DNA of 64,000 nucleotides from Halomonas sp. 54_146 (GCF_001507855.1 NZ_LGEN01000015.1:17586-81585), one strand, 5' to 3'; shown: positions 13,184 to 35,505, numbered from the stretch's first letter. Numbers and translations: made by a program. Notes: generated by a model not told the origin, from the letters alone.

Positions 13184-13237
13184 ATCTTCCTCTCATCAAA
13201 GCGCTGGCGGCACGCTAGCCGCAGCGAGTGGGTAGTG

Positions 13238-13300
13238 AGTGCTCTTAATACAAACCGCTAATAATTAATACAAACCGCCAATAAAACAAACCGCCAAATA
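13238..13300. repeat. short tandem repeat upstream of glpG
   Basis: Three imperfect copies of AATACAAACCGCYAATAA (16-20 bp spacing). It lies between the terminator of the candidate sRNA and the glpG start. One of many short intergenic tandem arrays in the window. Confidence 0.75.
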
Positions 13301-13306
13301 ACGCAC

Positions 13307-13405
13307 AAAAAAAACCGGCGGTGGGGACCGCCGGAGAATAAAAGCAAGGGATCATTCAAGGGAACACTTACTCAGATAGCCAGCAGCAGGGTTAGTTCAG
13401 ACGTT
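13307..13405 (-). ncRNA. candidate small RNA, copy A (with terminator)
   Basis: Minus strand. It ends in a strong intrinsic terminator: 8-bp stem CCGGCGGT/ACCGCCGG, loop of four, then eight T. Upstream of the stem are the blocks TGATCCCTTGCTT, CTGAGTAAGT and CTAACCCTGCTGCTGGCTAT, all of which recur in the locus at 17730-17857. The region upstream (13400-13450) is AT-rich and could hold a promoter, but I cannot fix the 5' end. An alternative is a long 3' UTR of the phosphoesterase gene, whose stop is about 190 bp away; the shared blocks argue against this. No ORF is conserved between the copies. A further AT-rich stretch (13406-13593) shows nothing else. Confidence 0.55.
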
Positions 13406-13593
13406 TTGAAAAAAATATGTAATTTTATGTAAAATTAAAAGAAATTAATTTTTGAAGCCTTTTATTAACGTAATGAGCGAAGGCCAGACAAGGCGAAATT
13501 AGCTGAAAAAACGGAGTCTATGATTAATAAATGAGTATGTTGAGGCTAATTTCAACACAGTATGGGCAAGCGCAATAGTTAATCAAAGGTTTC

Positions 13594-14580
13594 TTAGTCA
13601 AAGTCGATTTCCCAGGGCTTAGGCAGCGCCCGCTCTTCTTTCGGCACTTTAATCCACACAAAATGGTCGGCGTTTAATACCGCCTCACCACTCCACCGAT
13701 AAGCCACTAAGCGCCCATATTTCACCGCGCTGTAGTCAAGGCAGGCAATGTTACGGGTGGGCAGCGCAGGTATGCCTTCACACCAGTAATGACCAATAAA
13801 CAGCGGCGGCTGCTCTGGCCCGTAGTAGCTCAGTTTCTGGCATTCTTCATGGGTCAATGCGTGGGCTTCAAGATCACCCGGCAAGTTATCGGGCTGAAAC
13901 ACGACATCGCCCCACTGCTGGGGTGCCTCGGCCCAAAAATGGGCACGAAAGCTTTTGCGCGTAAAGCCGTCGCCGGAGTGTATCGCGATACCTTCAGGCA
14001 GCGAGATATGGGGGCCACGGGTTAAGCGATCTAAAATCCGAAACGCCTGGGTAGAGGGGTCTGTTGATTCCACCAGGAACTGTGTGTCCATGCAGCAATC
14101 AGGGCGGCGCTGCTTTAACTGTTCAATCAGCGTTGCGTCCCAGCAGGCATGCACTACACGAATGCCGTCTATCTCAAGGCATAGCGGAATCGTCTTAAAC
14201 CACGCCAGGGTATCTTCCCACTCGTTGGTGTAGTCGCGATACTGTTCCAAGGTGTCTTGAATAATACGGTTGTGGCGCGGCGTATGTTCACGCAGCCAGC
14301 GCTTGTGGCTGCCCGCAGGCGCGGGGTGGGTATACGCCAAGGCGTTATATTCGTGATTACCCATGACAATATACGCTTGGCCATGTTCGACCATTCGCCG
14401 GGCAATGGTCACCGCTAAGCGGATGCGTGGCCCACGATCTATCAAATCACCCAGGAAAATGACTTTTCGACGCGGGTGGCAATACACGCCTTTGCGCTGG
14501 TGATAACCGAGTTTTTCCAGCAGTGCCGCCAGCGTAGCGCCGCACCCATGGATATCACCAATCAGGTCGTACCCTTCCAT
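13594..14580 (-). CDS. calcineurin-like metallophosphoesterase
   Basis: A 328-aa cytoplasmic phosphatase of the PPP/ApaH-like superfamily. All metal and catalytic motifs are present: GDIHGC near residue 10, GDLIDRG near residue 47, GNHE near residue 77, and a later VVHACWD with the conserved His. This is the bis(5'-nucleosyl)-tetraphosphatase/PrpE style, but the substrate cannot be told from sequence. I use the ATG (MEGYDLIG) two bases after the nadK stop, with GGGGGA upstream; the ORF-track start is a TTG two codons earlier that would overlap nadK as TTGA. Cotranscribed with nadK. Confidence 0.88.
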   Translation of the reverse strand: MEGYDLIGDIHGCGATLAALLEKLGYHQRKGVYCHPRRKVIFLGDLIDRGPRIRLAVTIARRMVEHGQAYIVMGNHEYNALAYTHPAPAGSHKRWLREHTPRHNRIIQDTLEQYRDYTNEWEDTLAWFKTIPLCLEIDGIRVVHACWDATLIEQLKQRRPDCCMDTQFLVESTDPSTQAFRILDRLTRGPHISLPEGIAIHSGDGFTRKSFRAHFWAEAPQQWGDVVFQPDNLPGDLEAHALTHEECQKLSYYGPEQPPLFIGHYWCEGIPALPTRNIACLDYSAVKYGRLVAYRWSGEAVLNADHFVWIKVPKEERALPKPWEIDFD

Positions 14581-14582
14581 GC

Positions 14583-15515
14583 TCAATCCCCCAACCGGTG
14601 GCTCCAGCCTAATTTGCTGCGTAGCACTTCATAGAAATTGTGGCCGATAGGATGCACCAGCTGGACACGTTCAGGCTTGCGGGTGATGACCAATACATCG
14701 TTAGGCTTGGCCACTGCGCGGGTTTGGCCATCGCAGCTAATATGCGGATATGTGTGGTTGGTTTCGCCAATATGAATGCGTATTTCACTGGCGGCATCAA
14801 TCACAATAGGCCGACTCGACAGCGTGTGGGGGAACATGGGCACCAAGGTCACAACATCTAGTTTGGGGTGCATAATGGGCCCGCCGCCAGAAAGCGCATA
14901 AGCGGTAGAGCCTGTTGGTGTGGCGATAATTAAGCCATCGCTGCGCTGGCTGTAGACAAACTGGCCGTCAATAAACAGCTCAAACTCAATCATGCGCACC
15001 GCTTTACCGGGGTGCAGCACCACTTCATTTAGCGCATCACCATTGCCTACCGCAACACCGTTACGATAAAGCACGGAATCCAGCAGAAAACGCTGTTCAA
15101 CCTCAAACTCCCCCGCCAGCACTTCACCCACGCGGGTTTCCAGTTCATCTGGCGAGATATCGGTGAGAAACCCCAAGCGTCCCCGGTTAACGCCTAAAAT
15201 CAGCGTGCCACTTCGGCATAGGGCACGTGCGGCACCCAGCAAGCTGCCATCTCCGCCTACCACAATGACCAGATCACAAAGCTCACCCAGCATGCGACGG
15301 CTCGCTTCCGGCTGGCCGTGGTGCGGCAAGGCGGTGGCAGTGCGGTCTTCCACCAACACCGCGTACTTATGTGCAACAAGATAGGTCACGAGCCGCTGAA
15401 GGGAGTCGATCACTTTATCGCTCCCCAGCCGACCAATCAGCCCAATGGTTTTAAAAGGCCTGTTTGATTGATCGCCGGAAGACGCCATCGGTAATGCTGG
15501 TAAGGTGTTACACAT
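14583..15515 (-). CDS. nadK: NAD kinase
   Basis: Phosphorylates NAD+ to NADP+ in the cytoplasm. 310 aa. Family motifs: GGDGSLLGAAR (GGDG nucleotide loop), GRLGFLTDI, NEVVLHPG and SGGGPIMHP. The N-terminus before KTIGLIGR is variable, and MASSGDQ ten residues in could also be the start. First gene of a two-gene operon with the phosphoesterase (2-bp gap), a pairing that could link NADP supply to nucleotide phosphate turnover. Confidence 0.96.
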   Translation of the reverse strand: MCNTLPALPMASSGDQSNRPFKTIGLIGRLGSDKVIDSLQRLVTYLVAHKYAVLVEDRTATALPHHGQPEASRRMLGELCDLVIVVGGDGSLLGAARALCRSGTLILGVNRGRLGFLTDISPDELETRVGEVLAGEFEVEQRFLLDSVLYRNGVAVGNGDALNEVVLHPGKAVRMIEFELFIDGQFVYSQRSDGLIIATPTGSTAYALSGGGPIMHPKLDVVTLVPMFPHTLSSRPIVIDAASEIRIHIGETNHTYPHISCDGQTRAVAKPNDVLVITRKPERVQLVHPIGHNFYEVLRSKLGWSHRLGD

Positions 15516-15579
15516 GAGCCGACTCTCGCTGACATAAGCTAGCTATTATGGAGACACCTCTGCTATCGGGCAAATAGAC

Positions 15580-16449
15580 TCAGCTAACGACAGCGTGACG
15601 ACGCTGGCACCACCAATGGTTTAGCCATAGCGAGGCCGCCATGATTAGCGCCCCCAACAGCAGGCGGGGAATATCCGCATCGCGGTTCCAAATCACCAAA
15701 TTGACCATTAACCCCGCTGGCACCAGGGCGTTGTTCATAATGGCCAGGGTGCCCGCATCCACTTTGGTGGCACCTTGATTCCAGGCGAAGTAGCCCACAC
15801 CAGATGCTACTAGCCCCAACCAGGCCAATACGCCCCACTGTAGTGATGTGGTCGGCAATGCCGCGCTGTTGCCGAATAATAAATACGCTGGCAAGGCCAC
15901 CACCATTGCGCCGATAAAGAACCAGCCAAACACGTTGTGCCACGCCAAGGTGGGGGGTAAATCAGCCGCTAAACGACGATAGCCTACCTGGCCAATGGCA
16001 AAGCAAAGATTAGCCCCTTGCACCACTAAAAAGCCTGCCCAAAAACCACTATCCACACCGTCGTAGCGAATAACCCCCGCCCCTACGACAGCGAGCAGTG
16101 CGGTCACTAGGTAGATTGGCGTAAAGCGGCCAAACAGCAGGTCATCCAGCAGCGCGATATAAATAGGCGTGAAGATGGTGAACAGCAGTACTTCAGGCAC
16201 CGACAGCAGCAAAAAGGATTGATAGAAGAAGGTGTACATCACCCCCAGCTGTATGGCGCCTAAGCCCATCAACGCTAGGCGCTGTTTACCTTGCAGCAGG
16301 CTGGGGCGTAAAAATGGCAAAAACACCAGTGTGGCAAGCGTTACCCGCAGCAGCACTGCAAAGTAGCTGTCGACTTGGCCCGCTAAATAAACCCCTATCA
16401 ACGAAAAGGAAAATGCCCACAGCGCGGTGACGCCAACCAAATACCCCAT
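15580..16449 (-). CDS. EamA/DMT-family transporter
   Basis: A 289-aa inner membrane protein with ten predicted helices in two EamA repeats (GYLVGVTALWAFSFSLIG and later GFLVVQGANLCFAIGQVGYR). Such carriers export amino acids, amines or related metabolites; the substrate is not evident. The ORF-track start MFTAW is upstream of a clear promoter and cannot be used. MGYLVGV at 16449 has GAGG six bases before it; MRFTMGY at 16461 is the alternative. Transcribed alone, ending 65 bp from the nadK start. Confidence 0.85.
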   Translation of the reverse strand: MGYLVGVTALWAFSFSLIGVYLAGQVDSYFAVLLRVTLATLVFLPFLRPSLLQGKQRLALMGLGAIQLGVMYTFFYQSFLLLSVPEVLLFTIFTPIYIALLDDLLFGRFTPIYLVTALLAVVGAGVIRYDGVDSGFWAGFLVVQGANLCFAIGQVGYRRLAADLPPTLAWHNVFGWFFIGAMVVALPAYLLFGNSAALPTTSLQWGVLAWLGLVASGVGYFAWNQGATKVDAGTLAIMNNALVPAGLMVNLVIWNRDADIPRLLLGALIMAASLWLNHWWCQRRHAVVS

Positions 16450-16475
16450 CGTAAACCTCATCTTATAAATTAGTT

Positions 16476-16510
16476 TACGAGAATTATACGCATCTTGAAT
16501 AAGCTGCCAA
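16476..16510 (-). promoter_or_regulatory. sigma-70 promoter of the DMT transporter
   Basis: Minus strand TTGGCA, 16-bp spacer, TATAAT (a perfect -10), predicting a transcript start near 16476. It gives a short leader before the chosen start and rules out the longer ORF. Confidence 0.75.
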
Positions 16511-16537
16511 GCAGTAAACACTAATGACCGAATTTAG

Positions 16538-17047
16538 TTAACGCCGCTGCAACCACCACATCGCATACACAACGCCAGGCAGCCAACCCGCTAGCGTTAG
16601 CAGCACGGCTAACCCCACACGCTTGCTGCCTGCTTGGGTTAAGCCCACCGCCAGCGGCGGCAATAATAACGCCAGGGCATAATAAGCGAGCTTTAAGGCG
16701 TCTGGCTCTGGCACCGTTTGTTCGGCTTGCTGCGCGGGGGTCGCTTTGGGTGGCGGAGAAAAATACTCCACCGCGCTTGGCGTTGATGGGGCGGCAGCCT
16801 TGCCAGCATGCTCTTCGGCCTTTCGGTGGGCCTGCTTATCAATTTTCTGCTCTAGGGTTTCGGCCCCTTCAGCAAGGTCATCGTGATGACGCTCCCAATC
16901 TTCCCAATCGTGAGGCGTACCTGATTTTGGCCGCTGGTGCCCAGAACCCCGCGCCCGTTCCCAGGCTTTTTCTTCCAAGGTGTTCGGGCGATCAGGGTCT
17001 CGATCAAGCCCCACCCCTTTGCGGTTTAAGTACTCACGTGCATCCAT
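16538..17047 (-). CDS. Pmp3/YqaE-like membrane protein with long acidic N-terminus
   Basis: The last 50 residues of this 169-aa protein (two helices, LLPPLAVGLTQAG and AGWLPGVVYAMWW) match the Pmp3/YqaE/UPF0057 proteolipid family, which is linked to membrane potential and salt or cold stress. Family members are usually 50-60 aa. Here about 115 hydrophilic residues precede the domain, rich in E, D, K, R and H (WEDWERHHDDLAEG), probably cytoplasmic and partly coiled. The start has AAGGAG seven bases upstream. A role in osmotic adaptation would suit a halophile but is inference. Confidence 0.8.
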   Translation of the reverse strand: MDAREYLNRKGVGLDRDPDRPNTLEEKAWERARGSGHQRPKSGTPHDWEDWERHHDDLAEGAETLEQKIDKQAHRKAEEHAGKAAAPSTPSAVEYFSPPPKATPAQQAEQTVPEPDALKLAYYALALLLPPLAVGLTQAGSKRVGLAVLLTLAGWLPGVVYAMWWLQRR

Positions 17048-17159
17048 GGGCGGCTCCTTAATGCGTCAATTTACGGCCAGTTAAGTGGTTAGAAAATTAA
17101 CGGCTTAGAAAATTCAGTAAATACAGCGTTGAATAAACACAGCTTGCAGGCAAAGCGCT

Positions 17160-17178
17160 GCGGATTAAATCCGCCTAC
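17160..17178 (-). repeat. REP-like palindrome with GTAG head
   Basis: On the minus strand GTAG is followed directly by the palindrome GCGGATTTAATCCGC. A GTAG or GTGG tetranucleotide next to a short palindrome is the mark of REP elements mobilised by RAYT transposases. Only one copy is seen in this window and no RAYT gene. Confidence 0.5.
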
Positions 17179-17284
17179 AGTAAAAGAGTCGCTGCTACTT
17201 TAGCACCTAGAGACGACTGACCAGATCGCTTTGCTTGCGAGGCCTTTTTGCCATAGCGATGAATACGATGAGCAAGGAGTATCC

Positions 17285-17695
17285 ATGATGAATAGAGCAA
17301 CCCCAAGCACCGTCCGCGATATCATGTCCCGCGACTGCTACCGTGTCTCGCCCAATGCCTCGATTACCACCTTGGCTAAAGGGTTAGCACTGCACCGCCT
17401 ACCCGGTGCACCGGTGGTGGATGATGCTGATCATTTAATTGGCTTTATTTCAGAACAGGATGTCATGGGCCGCGTGTTGGATAGCATTTACCATGATGAC
17501 GAAGCGCCGCTGGTGAAAGAAATGATGCGCCAGGAAGTGCTCAGCGTCTCCCCCAATAAAAGCATTACCGACCTAGCCCAGGAGATGCTCGGCTCTAAAC
17601 CCAAGGTATACCCCGTAGTTGAGCAGCAGCGTTTGGTGGGGATCGTCACCCGACGTGATATTCTGATTGCGCTGCTTACCATACGCCGTCATTAA
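17285..17695 (+). CDS. CBS-domain pair protein
   Basis: A 136-aa protein of two CBS domains, the first from TVRDIMSRDCYRVSP and the second from VKEMMRQEVLSVSP to VTRRDILIALL. CBS pairs bind adenine nucleotides and sense energy state or ionic strength. No catalytic domain is attached, so it may act by binding partners. MMNRATP at 17285 has AAGGAG directly upstream; the ORF-track start 18 codons earlier has none. Single gene. Confidence 0.88.
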   Translation: MMNRATPSTVRDIMSRDCYRVSPNASITTLAKGLALHRLPGAPVVDDADHLIGFISEQDVMGRVLDSIYHDDEAPLVKEMMRQEVLSVSPNKSITDLAQEMLGSKPKVYPVVEQQRLVGIVTRRDILIALLTIRRH

Positions 17696-17729
17696 CACGC
17701 CGCCATTAGTCAATACGTAATTTTAAGCC

Positions 17730-17857
17730 AAAAAAAACCGCTACTCGTGAGTAGCGGAAGCAAGGGATCAAAACAATAGAGCCAGAACAACAAGGTTAGC
17801 GACTGCTATCGCGATGTTGTCTGTACTTACTCAGACACGCTATGAAGGAAAAGTTCG
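17730..17857 (-). ncRNA. candidate small RNA, copy B (with promoter and terminator)
   Basis: Minus strand, between two plus-strand genes, so no minus CDS explains its terminator. The promoter is TTGACG (17887-17892), a 17-bp spacer, and TTTACT (17864-17869), predicting a start near 17857. The end is an 8-9 bp hairpin CCGCTACT/AGTAGCGG followed by eight T. The RNA would be about 127 nt and contains CTGAGTAAGT, CTAACCTTGTTGTTCTGGCTCTAT and TGATCCCTTGCTT just before the terminator stem. These blocks recur in copy A, the last one 13 of 13 bases. The CCCUUGC stretch is single-stranded in a simple fold and could pair with AAGGG-type ribosome binding sites. Confidence 0.65.
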
Positions 17858-17895
17858 CAAAAAAGTAAAATTTTCGGCCCTAGCGGCGTCAAGCG

Positions 17896-17901
17896 TATAA
17901 T
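17896..17901 (+). promoter_or_regulatory. -10 element of the gene at 17945
   Basis: TATAAT on the plus strand 44 bp before the start codon. The matching -35 is weak. It lies back to back with the minus-strand -35 of the candidate sRNA (17887-17892), so the two promoters may compete. Confidence 0.5.
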
Positions 17902-17944: not shown

Positions 17945-18304
17945 ATGGCTCTCTACCTTTTAGTGTTCGGTGTGTGTGTACTGGTGATAGGTGCGGTAAT
18001 ACTGGTGTTGATGACCTCAAGCACGCCGCGCTACCGCACAGAACCCAAAGACCTCATCGCCTTATTCGATAAAGCACTCAACAGCCAGGTGAGCGAAACC
18101 GAGTGGAACGCGTTGATTGGTTACCCTATCCGTCATAATGAGTATTTAGACGGTATCAGGCGGCGTGCCGCCCACTTAATGGAGCAACATGGCCGACGTT
18201 GGCTAGTTGCCCAGGGTAAGCCACTGCTCAATCAAGAAGGCCAAGCCGAACTGAAAGCCCTTCGCGACCACTTATCCGCTCACACCGCCCTGCGCCAGCA
18301 ATAG
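17945..18304 (+). CDS. membrane-anchored protein of unknown function
   Basis: A 119-aa protein not recognised. One N-terminal membrane helix (LYLLVFGVCVLVIGAVILVLM) is followed by a soluble, mostly helical and charged domain with SETEWNALIGYPIRHNEYLDGIRRRA; an Nin/Cout or Nout/Cin orientation cannot be decided. The start follows TAGGAGCACTATAAA. The stop codon abuts a five-copy 19-bp tandem repeat that runs to the next gene. Position just upstream of the put regulator may be coincidental. Confidence 0.75.
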   Translation: MALYLLVFGVCVLVIGAVILVLMTSSTPRYRTEPKDLIALFDKALNSQVSETEWNALIGYPIRHNEYLDGIRRRAAHLMEQHGRRWLVAQGKPLLNQEGQAELKALRDHLSAHTALRQQ

Positions 18305-30645: not shown

Positions 30646-31891
30646 CACGCTGAAGCGCTTCAATAAAGCTATCCACTTCTTCAAGCGTATTATACGCCGC
30701 AAATGAAGCACGGCACGTGGCGTCTACCCCAAAATGAGCAAGCAACGGTTGCGCGCAGTGGTGGCCAGTACGAATAGCAACGCCGAGTTGATCGATCAGC
30801 AGGCCGATATCCTGAGCGTGCGCCCCATCGACCACAAAGGAAAGCACGCCGGCTTTTTGCGGCGCGGTGCCTAAAATGCGCAGCCCATCAATGCGTCCAA
30901 CCGCCTGGGTCGCGTGATCAAGCAGTTGCCCTTCCCACGCTCCAATGGCAGTAATACCGATGCTTTCAATCCACTCCAGCGCGCGACCAAGGGCGATCAC
31001 TTCGGCAATCGCAGGCGTTCCCGCTTCAAATTTATGCGGAATAGCGGCAAAGGTGGTGCCCGCATCAAACGAGACCGTTTTGATCATCTCTCCGCCACCC
31101 TGCCACGGCGGCATCGCTTCAAGCAAAGCCTGCTTGCCATACAGCACCCCAACGCCGGTGGGGCCATACACTTTGTGGCCGGAGAAGGCATAGAAATCGG
31201 CATCAATCGCCTGCACATCGACCACTTGATGGGGCGCGGCCTGGGCACCATCAACCAGAATCAGCGCGCCCTGCTGGTGGGCAAGCGTCGCCATCTCTTG
31301 CACCGGGTTTACGGTGCCAAACGCATTAGAGACATGGTTCACCGCCACCAGCTTGGTGCGCCCACTGAGCAGCCCGCGGTAAGCGGCCATATCCAGCGCG
31401 CCGTTGGCCTCAACGGGAATCACCTTGATAGTAAAACCGATTTCAGCGGCCAGCAGCTGCCAGGGCACAATATTGGAGTGATGCTCCAACATGGAAATCA
31501 ACACCTCATCGCCAGGGGCAAGGTTTGCGCGCCCCCAGCTGTTAGCGATTAAGTTAATCGCTTCCGTGGTGCCACGGGTGAAGATGATCTGACGCGCATC
31601 TTCCGCGTTGAGAAACGCCCGAACCTTCTGGCGAGTGCCTTCAAACGCCGCCGTTGCCTCATCGGCGAGGGTATGCAGACCACGGTGAATATTGGCGTTA
31701 TAGCGCGAGTAGTAATCGCTAAATACGTCAATTACCTGTTGGGGCGTCTGGCTGGTTGCCGCGTTATCCAGGTAAATCAGCGGCTTGCCATGCACTTCAC
31801 GGGCCAGAATTGGAAAGTCTTGACGCAGCCGCGCGACATCAAAGGGTGCTTGCACTGGCGCGGGTGTCGGCTCAATAACGGAATGTGGCAT
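30626..31891 (-). CDS. sufS: cysteine desulfurase SufS
   Basis: PLP enzyme that takes sulfur from cysteine for Fe-S clusters. 421 aa. The PLP lysine is in SGHKVYGPTGVGVLYG and the active-site persulfide cysteine in RTGHHCAQPLL, typical of group II desulfurases. Usual SufS partners SufE or SufU are not encoded in this operon. It starts 12 bp after the sufD stop. Confidence 0.96.
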   Translation of the reverse strand: MPHSVIEPTPAPVQAPFDVARLRQDFPILAREVHGKPLIYLDNAATSQTPQQVIDVFSDYYSRYNANIHRGLHTLADEATAAFEGTRQKVRAFLNAEDARQIIFTRGTTEAINLIANSWGRANLAPGDEVLISMLEHHSNIVPWQLLAAEIGFTIKVIPVEANGALDMAAYRGLLSGRTKLVAVNHVSNAFGTVNPVQEMATLAHQQGALILVDGAQAAPHQVVDVQAIDADFYAFSGHKVYGPTGVGVLYGKQALLEAMPPWQGGGEMIKTVSFDAGTTFAAIPHKFEAGTPAIAEVIALGRALEWIESIGITAIGAWEGQLLDHATQAVGRIDGLRILGTAPQKAGVLSFVVDGAHAQDIGLLIDQLGVAIRTGHHCAQPLLAHFGVDATCRASFAAYNTLEEVDSFIEALQRVIGMVR

Positions 31892-34062: not shown

Positions 34063-35505
34063 TTAACCCACCGCGCCTTCCAGGGTCACGTTGAGCAGCG
34101 CTTCGGCTTCCACAGCGAACTCCATCGGCAGCTCTTGGAAAACGTCTTTACAGAAACCGTTGACGATCATGCTGACCGCGTCTTCTTCAGAAATACCGCG
34201 GCTCTGGCAGTAGAACAGCTGGTCTTCACCGATTTTTGACGTGGTCGCTTCGTGTTCGATGGTCGCTGTGCTATTGCCAATTTCCTGATAGGGGAAGGTG
34301 TGCGCACCGCACTTGTCGCCGATCAGCAGCGAATCGCACTGGGTAAAGTTACGCGCCCCTTTGGCACGCGGGCCGATTTTCACCAGGCCGCGATAGGACT
34401 GGTTACTTCTACCGGCCGAAATGCCTTTGGCGACGATATAAGAGCGTGTGCCTTCGCCAATATGAATCATCTTGGTGCCGGTATCGGCCTGCTGGCGGCC
34501 GTTGGTGACGGCGACAGAGTAGAACTCGCCGATACTGTCTTTGCCGCGCAGTATGCAGGAAGGATACTTCCAGGTAATCGCCGAGCCGGTTTCCACTTGG
34601 GTCCAGCTGATACGCGAGCGCTCACCACGGCAGTCGCCGCGCTTGGTCACGAAGTTATAGATACCGCCAACGCCGTTCTCATCACCGGGGTACCAGTTCT
34701 GCACGGTGGAGTATTTGATATAGGCGTCATCTAGTGCGACAAGCTCGACCACCGCAGCGTGAAGCTGGTTTTCATCGCGCATGGGGGCGGTACAGCCTTC
34801 CAGGTAGGAAACCTGGGCACGGCTTTCGCAAATAATCAGCGTGCGCTCAAACTGGCCGGTGTTGGCCGCGTTAATGCGGAAGTAAGTGGACAGCTCCATC
34901 GGGCAAGTCACGCCTTCCGGCACGAATACAAAGGAGCCGTCGGTAAATACCGCTGAGTTCAGCGCGGCAAAGTAGTTATCCGCCACGGGAACCACGGTGC
35001 CCAAATACTGTTTGATCAGCTCTGGGTAATCGCGAATCGCTTCAGAGATAGAGCAGAAAATAACGCCCGCTTCACCCAGCTGCTTTTTAAACGTGGTGGC
35101 AACAGAAACGGAGTCAAACACCGCATCGACCGCAACGCCTGCCAATGCAGCGCGTTCATGCAACGGGATGCCCAGCTTTTCATAGGTTTCCAGCAGCTTG
35201 GGGTCAACTTCGTCCAGGCTCTGCGGGCGGTCTTCCGGGCGTTTTGGCGCACTGAAATAGGAGATTGACTGGTAATCAATCGGCGGATAGTCAAGATGCG
35301 CCCAGGAAGGCGCTTCCATCTTCAGCCACTGGCGGTAGGCATCCAAGCGCCACTCCAGCATCCATTCCGGCTCGCCTTTCTTATTGGAAATAAAGGCGAT
35401 GGTGTTTTCATCCAGGCCAGGTGGCAGGGTGTCGCTTTCAATATCGGTTACAAAGCCATCTTTGTATTCGCGACGAACCAACTGTTCCATTTCTTCGCTT
35501 GCCAT
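34063..35505 (-). CDS. sufB: Fe-S scaffold subunit SufB
   Basis: Main scaffold on which the cluster is built. 480 aa with [22 protein letters not shown], the conserved-cysteine region of Suf[28 protein letters not shown] and the C-terminal [26 protein letters not shown] has GGAGGG upstream and is preferred to the 12-residue longer track ORF. Confidence 0.96.

Follow-up and report, generated by a model that had tools for sequence, protein, structure and literature searches.

The window, by which we mean the whole stretch of 64,000 nucleotides of Halomonas sp. 54_146 DNA that was analysed, probably carries two separate sigmaE small RNA genes of RybB/MicA-like character, of which one (RNA B) would repress translation of the major porin and the other (RNA A) would be a broader regulator. 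In the proposed mechanism the envelope-stress sigma factor RpoE/AlgU would direct transcription of both loci, and failed outer-membrane assembly would lead sigmaE to switch A and B on. The genes themselves, their promoter motifs and terminators, their conservation and the covariation of B with the porin gene can be read directly in the sequences compared.

Two small RNA loci and their shared sequence blocks

All sequence features listed in the initial annotation were located on the minus strand of the window (Table 1), and its proposal of two independent minus-strand small RNA genes agrees with the sequence, in which each locus has its own promoter motif and terminator. Hits in congeneric genomes sort into two classes, A and B, and the covariance models R1 (for A) and R2 (for B) were built from the loci sorted in this way. 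R1 matches 188 of 201 Halomonadaceae genomes, representing 22 of 24 genera, and R2 matches 121 of the 201 (14 of 24 genera), including 50 of 50 genomes of the genus, so that the expected conservation in related genomes is found for both RNAs.

Table 1. Features of the two loci, in coordinates of the 64,000-nucleotide window
Feature	Position	Strand	Basis or remark
sRNA A, about 61 nt	13307..13367	minus	R1 covariance-model match (contig C35 of G000, 30892-30952, minus); 5' end placed from promoter and conservation
A promoter, sigmaE type, GAACT-N17-TCTGA	13372..13398	minus	GAAC and TC..A invariant in 34 loci
A 5' seed region GTGTTCCCTTGAATGATCCCTTGCTT, with two TCCCTTG motifs	13342..13367	minus	26 nt, invariant in 34/34 loci of the genus
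A intrinsic terminator CCGGCGGTCCCCACCGCCGG T8	13307..13334	minus	sequence
Metallophosphatase (apaH-like) gene	13594..14586	minus	PF00149; upstream of A, conserved neighbour, outside the sRNA
sRNA B, about 98 nt	17730..17827	minus	R2 covariance-model match (contig C35 of G000, 35315-35412, minus); putative 5' end
B promoter, sigmaE type, GAACTTTT...TCTGA (GAACT-N16-TCTGA)	17831..17856	minus	sequence
B core GCGATAGCAGTCGCTAA	17796..17812	minus	complementary to major porin codons 6-11
B second pairing segment GTTTTGATC	17766..17774	minus	complementary (one G-U) to porin 5' UTR GATCGAAAC
B intrinsic terminator CCGCTACTCACGAGTAGCGG T8	17730..17757	minus	sequence and fold
CBS-domain protein gene	17282..17695	plus	PF00571; convergent neighbour of B, outside the sRNA
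ORF, small gene beside B	17945-18304	plus	
Shared 13-mer TGATCCCTTGCTT	13354-13342 (A), 17770-17758 (B)	minus	precedes a GC stem and T8 at both loci
Shared CTGAGTAAGT	13375-13366 (A), 17834-17825 (B)	minus	sequence
CTAACC..CTGGCT-like block, CTAACCCTGCTGCTGGCT (A) and CTAACCTTGTTGTTCTGGCT (B)	13395-13378 (A), 17799-17780 (B)	minus	

Judged from sequence and fold, A and B are short RNAs ending in intrinsic terminators. RNA A begins with GUGUUCCCUUGAAUGAUCCCUUGCUU, without a single difference among 34 congeneric loci; the folding z-score for the whole RNA is -4.1, and both UCCCUU motifs are unpaired in the predicted fold. An internal 22-mer of the A seed was found, as an exact match, in at least 119 stretches of GTDB genomes, and among the matches listed all are from Halomonadaceae except one unclassified gammaproteobacterium, the genera being Vreelandella, Halomonas, Billgrantia, Modicisalibacter, Kushneria, Salinicola, Chromohalobacter, Larsenimonas, Onishia, Litchfieldella, Cobetia, Halotalea and Aidingimonas. 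Four weak matches outside the family but within the order (G434, G343, G368 and G351) were discarded, none of them having A's seed. Class B loci run from the promoter through a stem-loop containing GCGATAGCAGTCGC and an unpaired stretch, at whose end stands GATCCCTTGCTT, to a GC stem, different from that of A, with T8; the B core, as RNA GCGAU[A/G]GCAGUCGCUAA, also differs from A.

The position of A on the same strand after an apaH-like gene, seen in 67 of 68 named loci, could mean that A is merely the 3' UTR terminator, or a processed 3' UTR fragment, of this gene. However, A in the window starts more than 200 nt past the end of the ORF and has a conserved promoter motif of its own, and extra copies elsewhere in other genera, those of the genomes G060 and G071, retain the promoter motif and the seed while the remainder differs; we therefore hold a 3' UTR origin to be quite improbable. 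The extra copies in the genomes G072 and G073 (loci L271 and L280) are more divergent, with a short hairpin (e.g. GGGAAGAGCAATCTTTCCC) before the seed GTTCCCTTG, so that by sequence the seed is shared but the 5' architecture is not. For B, the initial annotation had already argued that the RNA is not a 3' UTR, and its place between two plus-strand ORFs is in agreement with this.

A shared 13-mer is by itself unremarkable, since about 570 13-mers are present at least twice in the 64-kb window when both strands are counted. The exact TGATCCCTTGCTT 13-mer has only two occurrences in the 3.56 Mb source genome and, on the search in relatives proposed in the initial annotation, was present in 36 of 36 congeneric genomes besides the source genome; in 21 other genera of the order it occurs once, in one genome. 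Its rarity in the genome together with the congeneric conservation puts the sharing above chance. The initial annotation had gone further and seen the loci as paralogous copies with rearranged modules, and the common strand, the distance of 4.3 kb, the common pre-terminator 13-mer and CTGAGTAAGT, as well as a weak match of R1 to the 3' end of B in some genomes of the genus (E ~1e-4), speak for paralogues of one small RNA with modules reshuffled after the duplication. No homology of A and B was found, however, beyond the promoter and the one 13-nt block. The CTAACC..CTGGCT-like block is promoter spacer in A and RNA in B, and it is not conserved, its position in A of relatives reading CTAACCCTGCCGTCGGCT and similar, or being lost; B of other genera lacks the 13-mer and yet keeps the B core, which A does not have. 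Since CTGAGTAAGT is the -10 region of both promoters and the third block is A promoter spacer, paralogy with rearrangement is unsupported, and we consider such an origin very improbable. The idea of CCCUUGC as a functional core common to both RNAs was likewise given up, because B of other genera is without it and reads GATCTTGCC or GATCCTTGCC; for B the porin mRNA is the evident target, and the segment that would contact it is another one.

Promoters and the predicted sigma factor

By sequence, both genes have a promoter of the sigmaE (RpoE/AlgU) type, with CTGAGTAAGT as its -10 region, so that its sharing would reflect a common regulator. At the level of motifs, the sigmaE -35 and -10 elements are found in the promoters of both A and B. 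Within the genus the class A promoter reads GAACT-N17-TC(A/T)GA, and the consensus upstream of 80 A loci from many genera consists of a T-tract, (G)GAACTT, N16, TCAGA and GTAAGT. The strict pattern GAACTT-N14-17-TCTGA has only four sites in the source genome, one of which is the B promoter, and the sigmaE-type promoter of B is kept in other genera. The promoters of Salmonella rybB and micA closely match the sigmaE motif GGAACTTTT / GTCAAA (PMC1804206), with which the A and B motifs agree closely. All ten genomes of the genus that were tested have an RpoE-type sigma factor scoring above the family cut-off, and at E<=0.001 TIGR02939 gives one hit in the source genome. Transcription of both loci, its dependence on sigmaE and the use of Hfq are predictions. 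No canonical GAACTT..TCTGA was found upstream of rpoE in the genus, and autoregulation is for this reason not usable as a yardstick for sigmaE.

GAACTT-like -35 elements are common to several ECF groups, and since related genomes encode several ECF-type sigma factors, the promoters might be read by an ECF factor other than RpoE/AlgU, with a different stress as the trigger. This is unlikely in view of the close agreement with the published Salmonella motif, the lone TIGR02939 hit of the source genome, and the predicted porin target of B, porin being a classic target of sigmaE small RNAs. Beside the RpoE/AlgU-type promoter, which we prefer for B, the TTGACG-17-TTTACT promoter assigned to this RNA in the initial annotation is indeed present (17892-17864, minus strand), but unlike the conserved sigmaE-type promoter it turned up only in close relatives; it may yield a longer B transcript during normal growth. 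Adjoining the -35 element of A on its upstream side, tandem TTACAT boxes about 10 bp apart (13417..13434, minus strand) are observed in most A loci of the genus, and they are a possible activator site, of the OmpR/CpxR type.

Predicted pairing of B with the major porin mRNA

Conserved pairing of B with the mRNA of an outer-membrane protein was found. Porin genes collected by Pfam Porin_4 in ten genomes begin with the codons ATG AAA AAG ACA CTn TTA GCG ACT GCY ATY, which contain the reverse complement of the B core. B and the porin were then compared within the same genomes (n = 58), the porin starts being located by ATGAARAARACACT, which lies outside the paired segment, so that porins were not chosen by pairing. 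In each of the 58 genomes, 15 to 17 of the 17 core positions are complementary to the major porin (MKKTLLATAIAG...) at its codons 6-11; presence of the core is partly selected, since the B loci were picked with a core-containing model. All 17 positions are paired in 44 of the 58 genomes and the minimum is 15; the duplex in the source genome is estimated at -30.3 kcal/mol.

One base of the core, in GAT[A/G]GC, varies often, and it was not selected for, since the sequences of the model all carry A there. Set against porin codon 9, it gives 31 A-T, 26 G-C, one G-T and no A-C combinations, in two genes that are unlinked and at a site that is synonymous in the porin. Fisher's exact test, with kinship disregarded, gives 2e-15 for the 57 pairs usable at first; a rough tree places about four changes in B and three in the porin, two of them on the same branch (p ~0.003), and the covariation thus depends on few independent switches. 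When partners were shuffled, 37.5 mismatches were obtained vs the 22 observed, and none of 5000 shuffles reached the observed Watson-Crick total. A second compensatory change is seen in one genome, G009 (GUCGCCAAG vs CUUGGCGAC). Pairing also agrees with the porin codons, since the seventh and eighth read GCG and ACT in every one of the 58 genomes and codons 14-16 vary.

Constraints on the porin codons and on a hairpin in B might also produce complementarity by coincidence and without any pairing, as the B core can fold a hairpin of its own (GCGA..UCGC) and early porin codons are conserved in general. Such a coincidence has hardly any probability given 17 nt of complementarity over 58 genomes, matched changes at a synonymous site and the poorer pairing with shuffled partners.

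Genuine pairing of B with the porin mRNA, the reading that we favour, would include a second contact. The box GATC[G/A]AAAC is present in the porin 5' UTR of 58 of 58 genomes and the complementary GTTT[C/T]GATC in B of 29 of 58, so that both halves of the contact are found in 29 of 58; in the source genome this duplex amounts to -15.3 kcal/mol over 13 pairs. The two contacts are antiparallel in order and flank the Shine-Dalgarno sequence and start codon of the porin. We propose that the core GCGAUAGCAGUCGCUAA pairs with codons 6-11 and that the 3' single-stranded UUGUUUUGAUC pairs with the 5' UTR some 30 nt upstream of the start codon; as the contacts bracket the ribosome-binding site and the start codon, pairing would either prevent translation or make the mRNA prone to decay. 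B thus very probably shuts down the major porin message, as far as can be judged from the sequences.

Candidate targets of A and relation to known small RNAs

In RybB the seed is the 5' end, and by this analogy A should be a broader regulator of several mRNAs, all its targets being predictions. Most likely its 5' region, with the two UCCCUUG motifs, would repress further envelope or transport mRNAs at ribosome-binding sites of the AAGGGA type, and the pairing of CCCUUGC with ribosome-binding sites suggested in the initial annotation is possible for A. In the source genome CAAGGGA precedes ATG at 35 sites, compared with 15 for the reversed pattern, an excess that says little because AAGGGA resembles a ribosome-binding site. 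Candidate sites there are those at a family-5 solute-binding protein gene and a YbaK-type gene, with matches of 10-11 nt, and at a TonB receptor gene, and no convincing A site was found at OmpA-like genes. The OmpA-like lipoprotein genes (MKKSTTGLLLGSA...; L305, L308, L309, L311 and L314) have a 5' UTR, GTTACGACTAGCG..GTGTTAAGAAGGAGTCTTAC, with striking conservation from genus to genus, which would suit another target of a regulatory RNA.

In the source genome a short ORF, MLLAVNAHWLGLIGMELGARRTSLRSV, reaches right up to the start codon of rpoE (locus L069, contig C28 of G000, near 72565-72578). This leader ORF has 27-32 codons and a conserved start in 10 congeneric genomes, where its end coincides with the rpoE start or lies just inside it, and its ribosome-binding site in the ten genomes is CAAGGGAC or CAAGGAAC. 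It looks translationally coupled to rpoE, comparable to the rpoE leader peptide rseD of E. coli (PMC8595263). It is tempting to speculate on a complete envelope-stress riboregulon, with B clasping the porin mRNA twice, once on either side of the start codon, and A, besides its other targets, pairing with the ribosome-binding site of the rpoE leader (CCCAAGGGACGCUAUG) and so closing a feedback loop on the sigma factor, but this is rather unlikely. Pairing of A with the leader ORF did not stand out from shuffles in nine of ten genomes (p 0.11-0.44), the value in the remaining one being 0.01.

In keeping with the initial annotation, which had recognised no family, covariance-model searches gave no Rfam match at the gathering threshold in the window, and the RybB and MicA models gave no match up to E=10 in the region 13200-17900. 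Scores of A with the suhB/mmgR and ncS16 models (21.5 and 19.3 bits vs gathering thresholds of 41 and 48) were treated as chance, the weak similarity consisting of a short unpaired 5' part and a terminator. The gene neighbourhoods of MicA and RybB (luxS-gshA and the ybjK-ybjL region) are absent, the neighbours here being apaH-like, rhomboid and CBS-domain genes. RybB, a sigmaE-dependent enterobacterial small RNA targeting major omp mRNAs (PMC1804206), is similar in its sigmaE-type promoter, short length and intrinsic terminator, and resembles A in layout, with a conserved 5' end, and B in target; the differences are the lack of an Rfam model match, the genomic place, and the use by B of an internal hairpin core and a 3' segment. 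MicA, which acts on ompA and whose gene lies between luxS and gshA (PMC1804206), shares the sigmaE-type promoter and a single major outer-membrane protein as target, as predicted for B, whereas B has no MicA match in Rfam, lies between a CBS-domain gene and a small gene, and has a Porin_4 protein instead of OmpA as its predicted target. ErsA of Pseudomonas aeruginosa is controlled by AlgU and represses the porin oprD together with Hfq (PMC7264166); compared by its published description, it resembles what is proposed here in AlgU/sigmaE-type control and porin repression, and differs in the target porin and site. By this evidence A and B would act like RybB, MicA and ErsA, and by model and gene neighbourhood they are not RybB or MicA. 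Our literature search gave no earlier description of A or B and no envelope-stress-response small RNA for Halomonadaceae; the A/B pair is apparently new to this family.

In the industrial chassis Halomonas bluephagenesis a Halomonas porin gene supplies a promoter that is in standard use as a constitutive part (PMC7334215), so that control of the porin would have practical weight there if the target of B is the same porin. The model predicts that one base change in the small RNA and one synonymous change in the porin would break and then restore regulation. The result also suggests that porin repression by sigmaE small RNAs came about with unrelated sequences in another gammaproteobacterial family.
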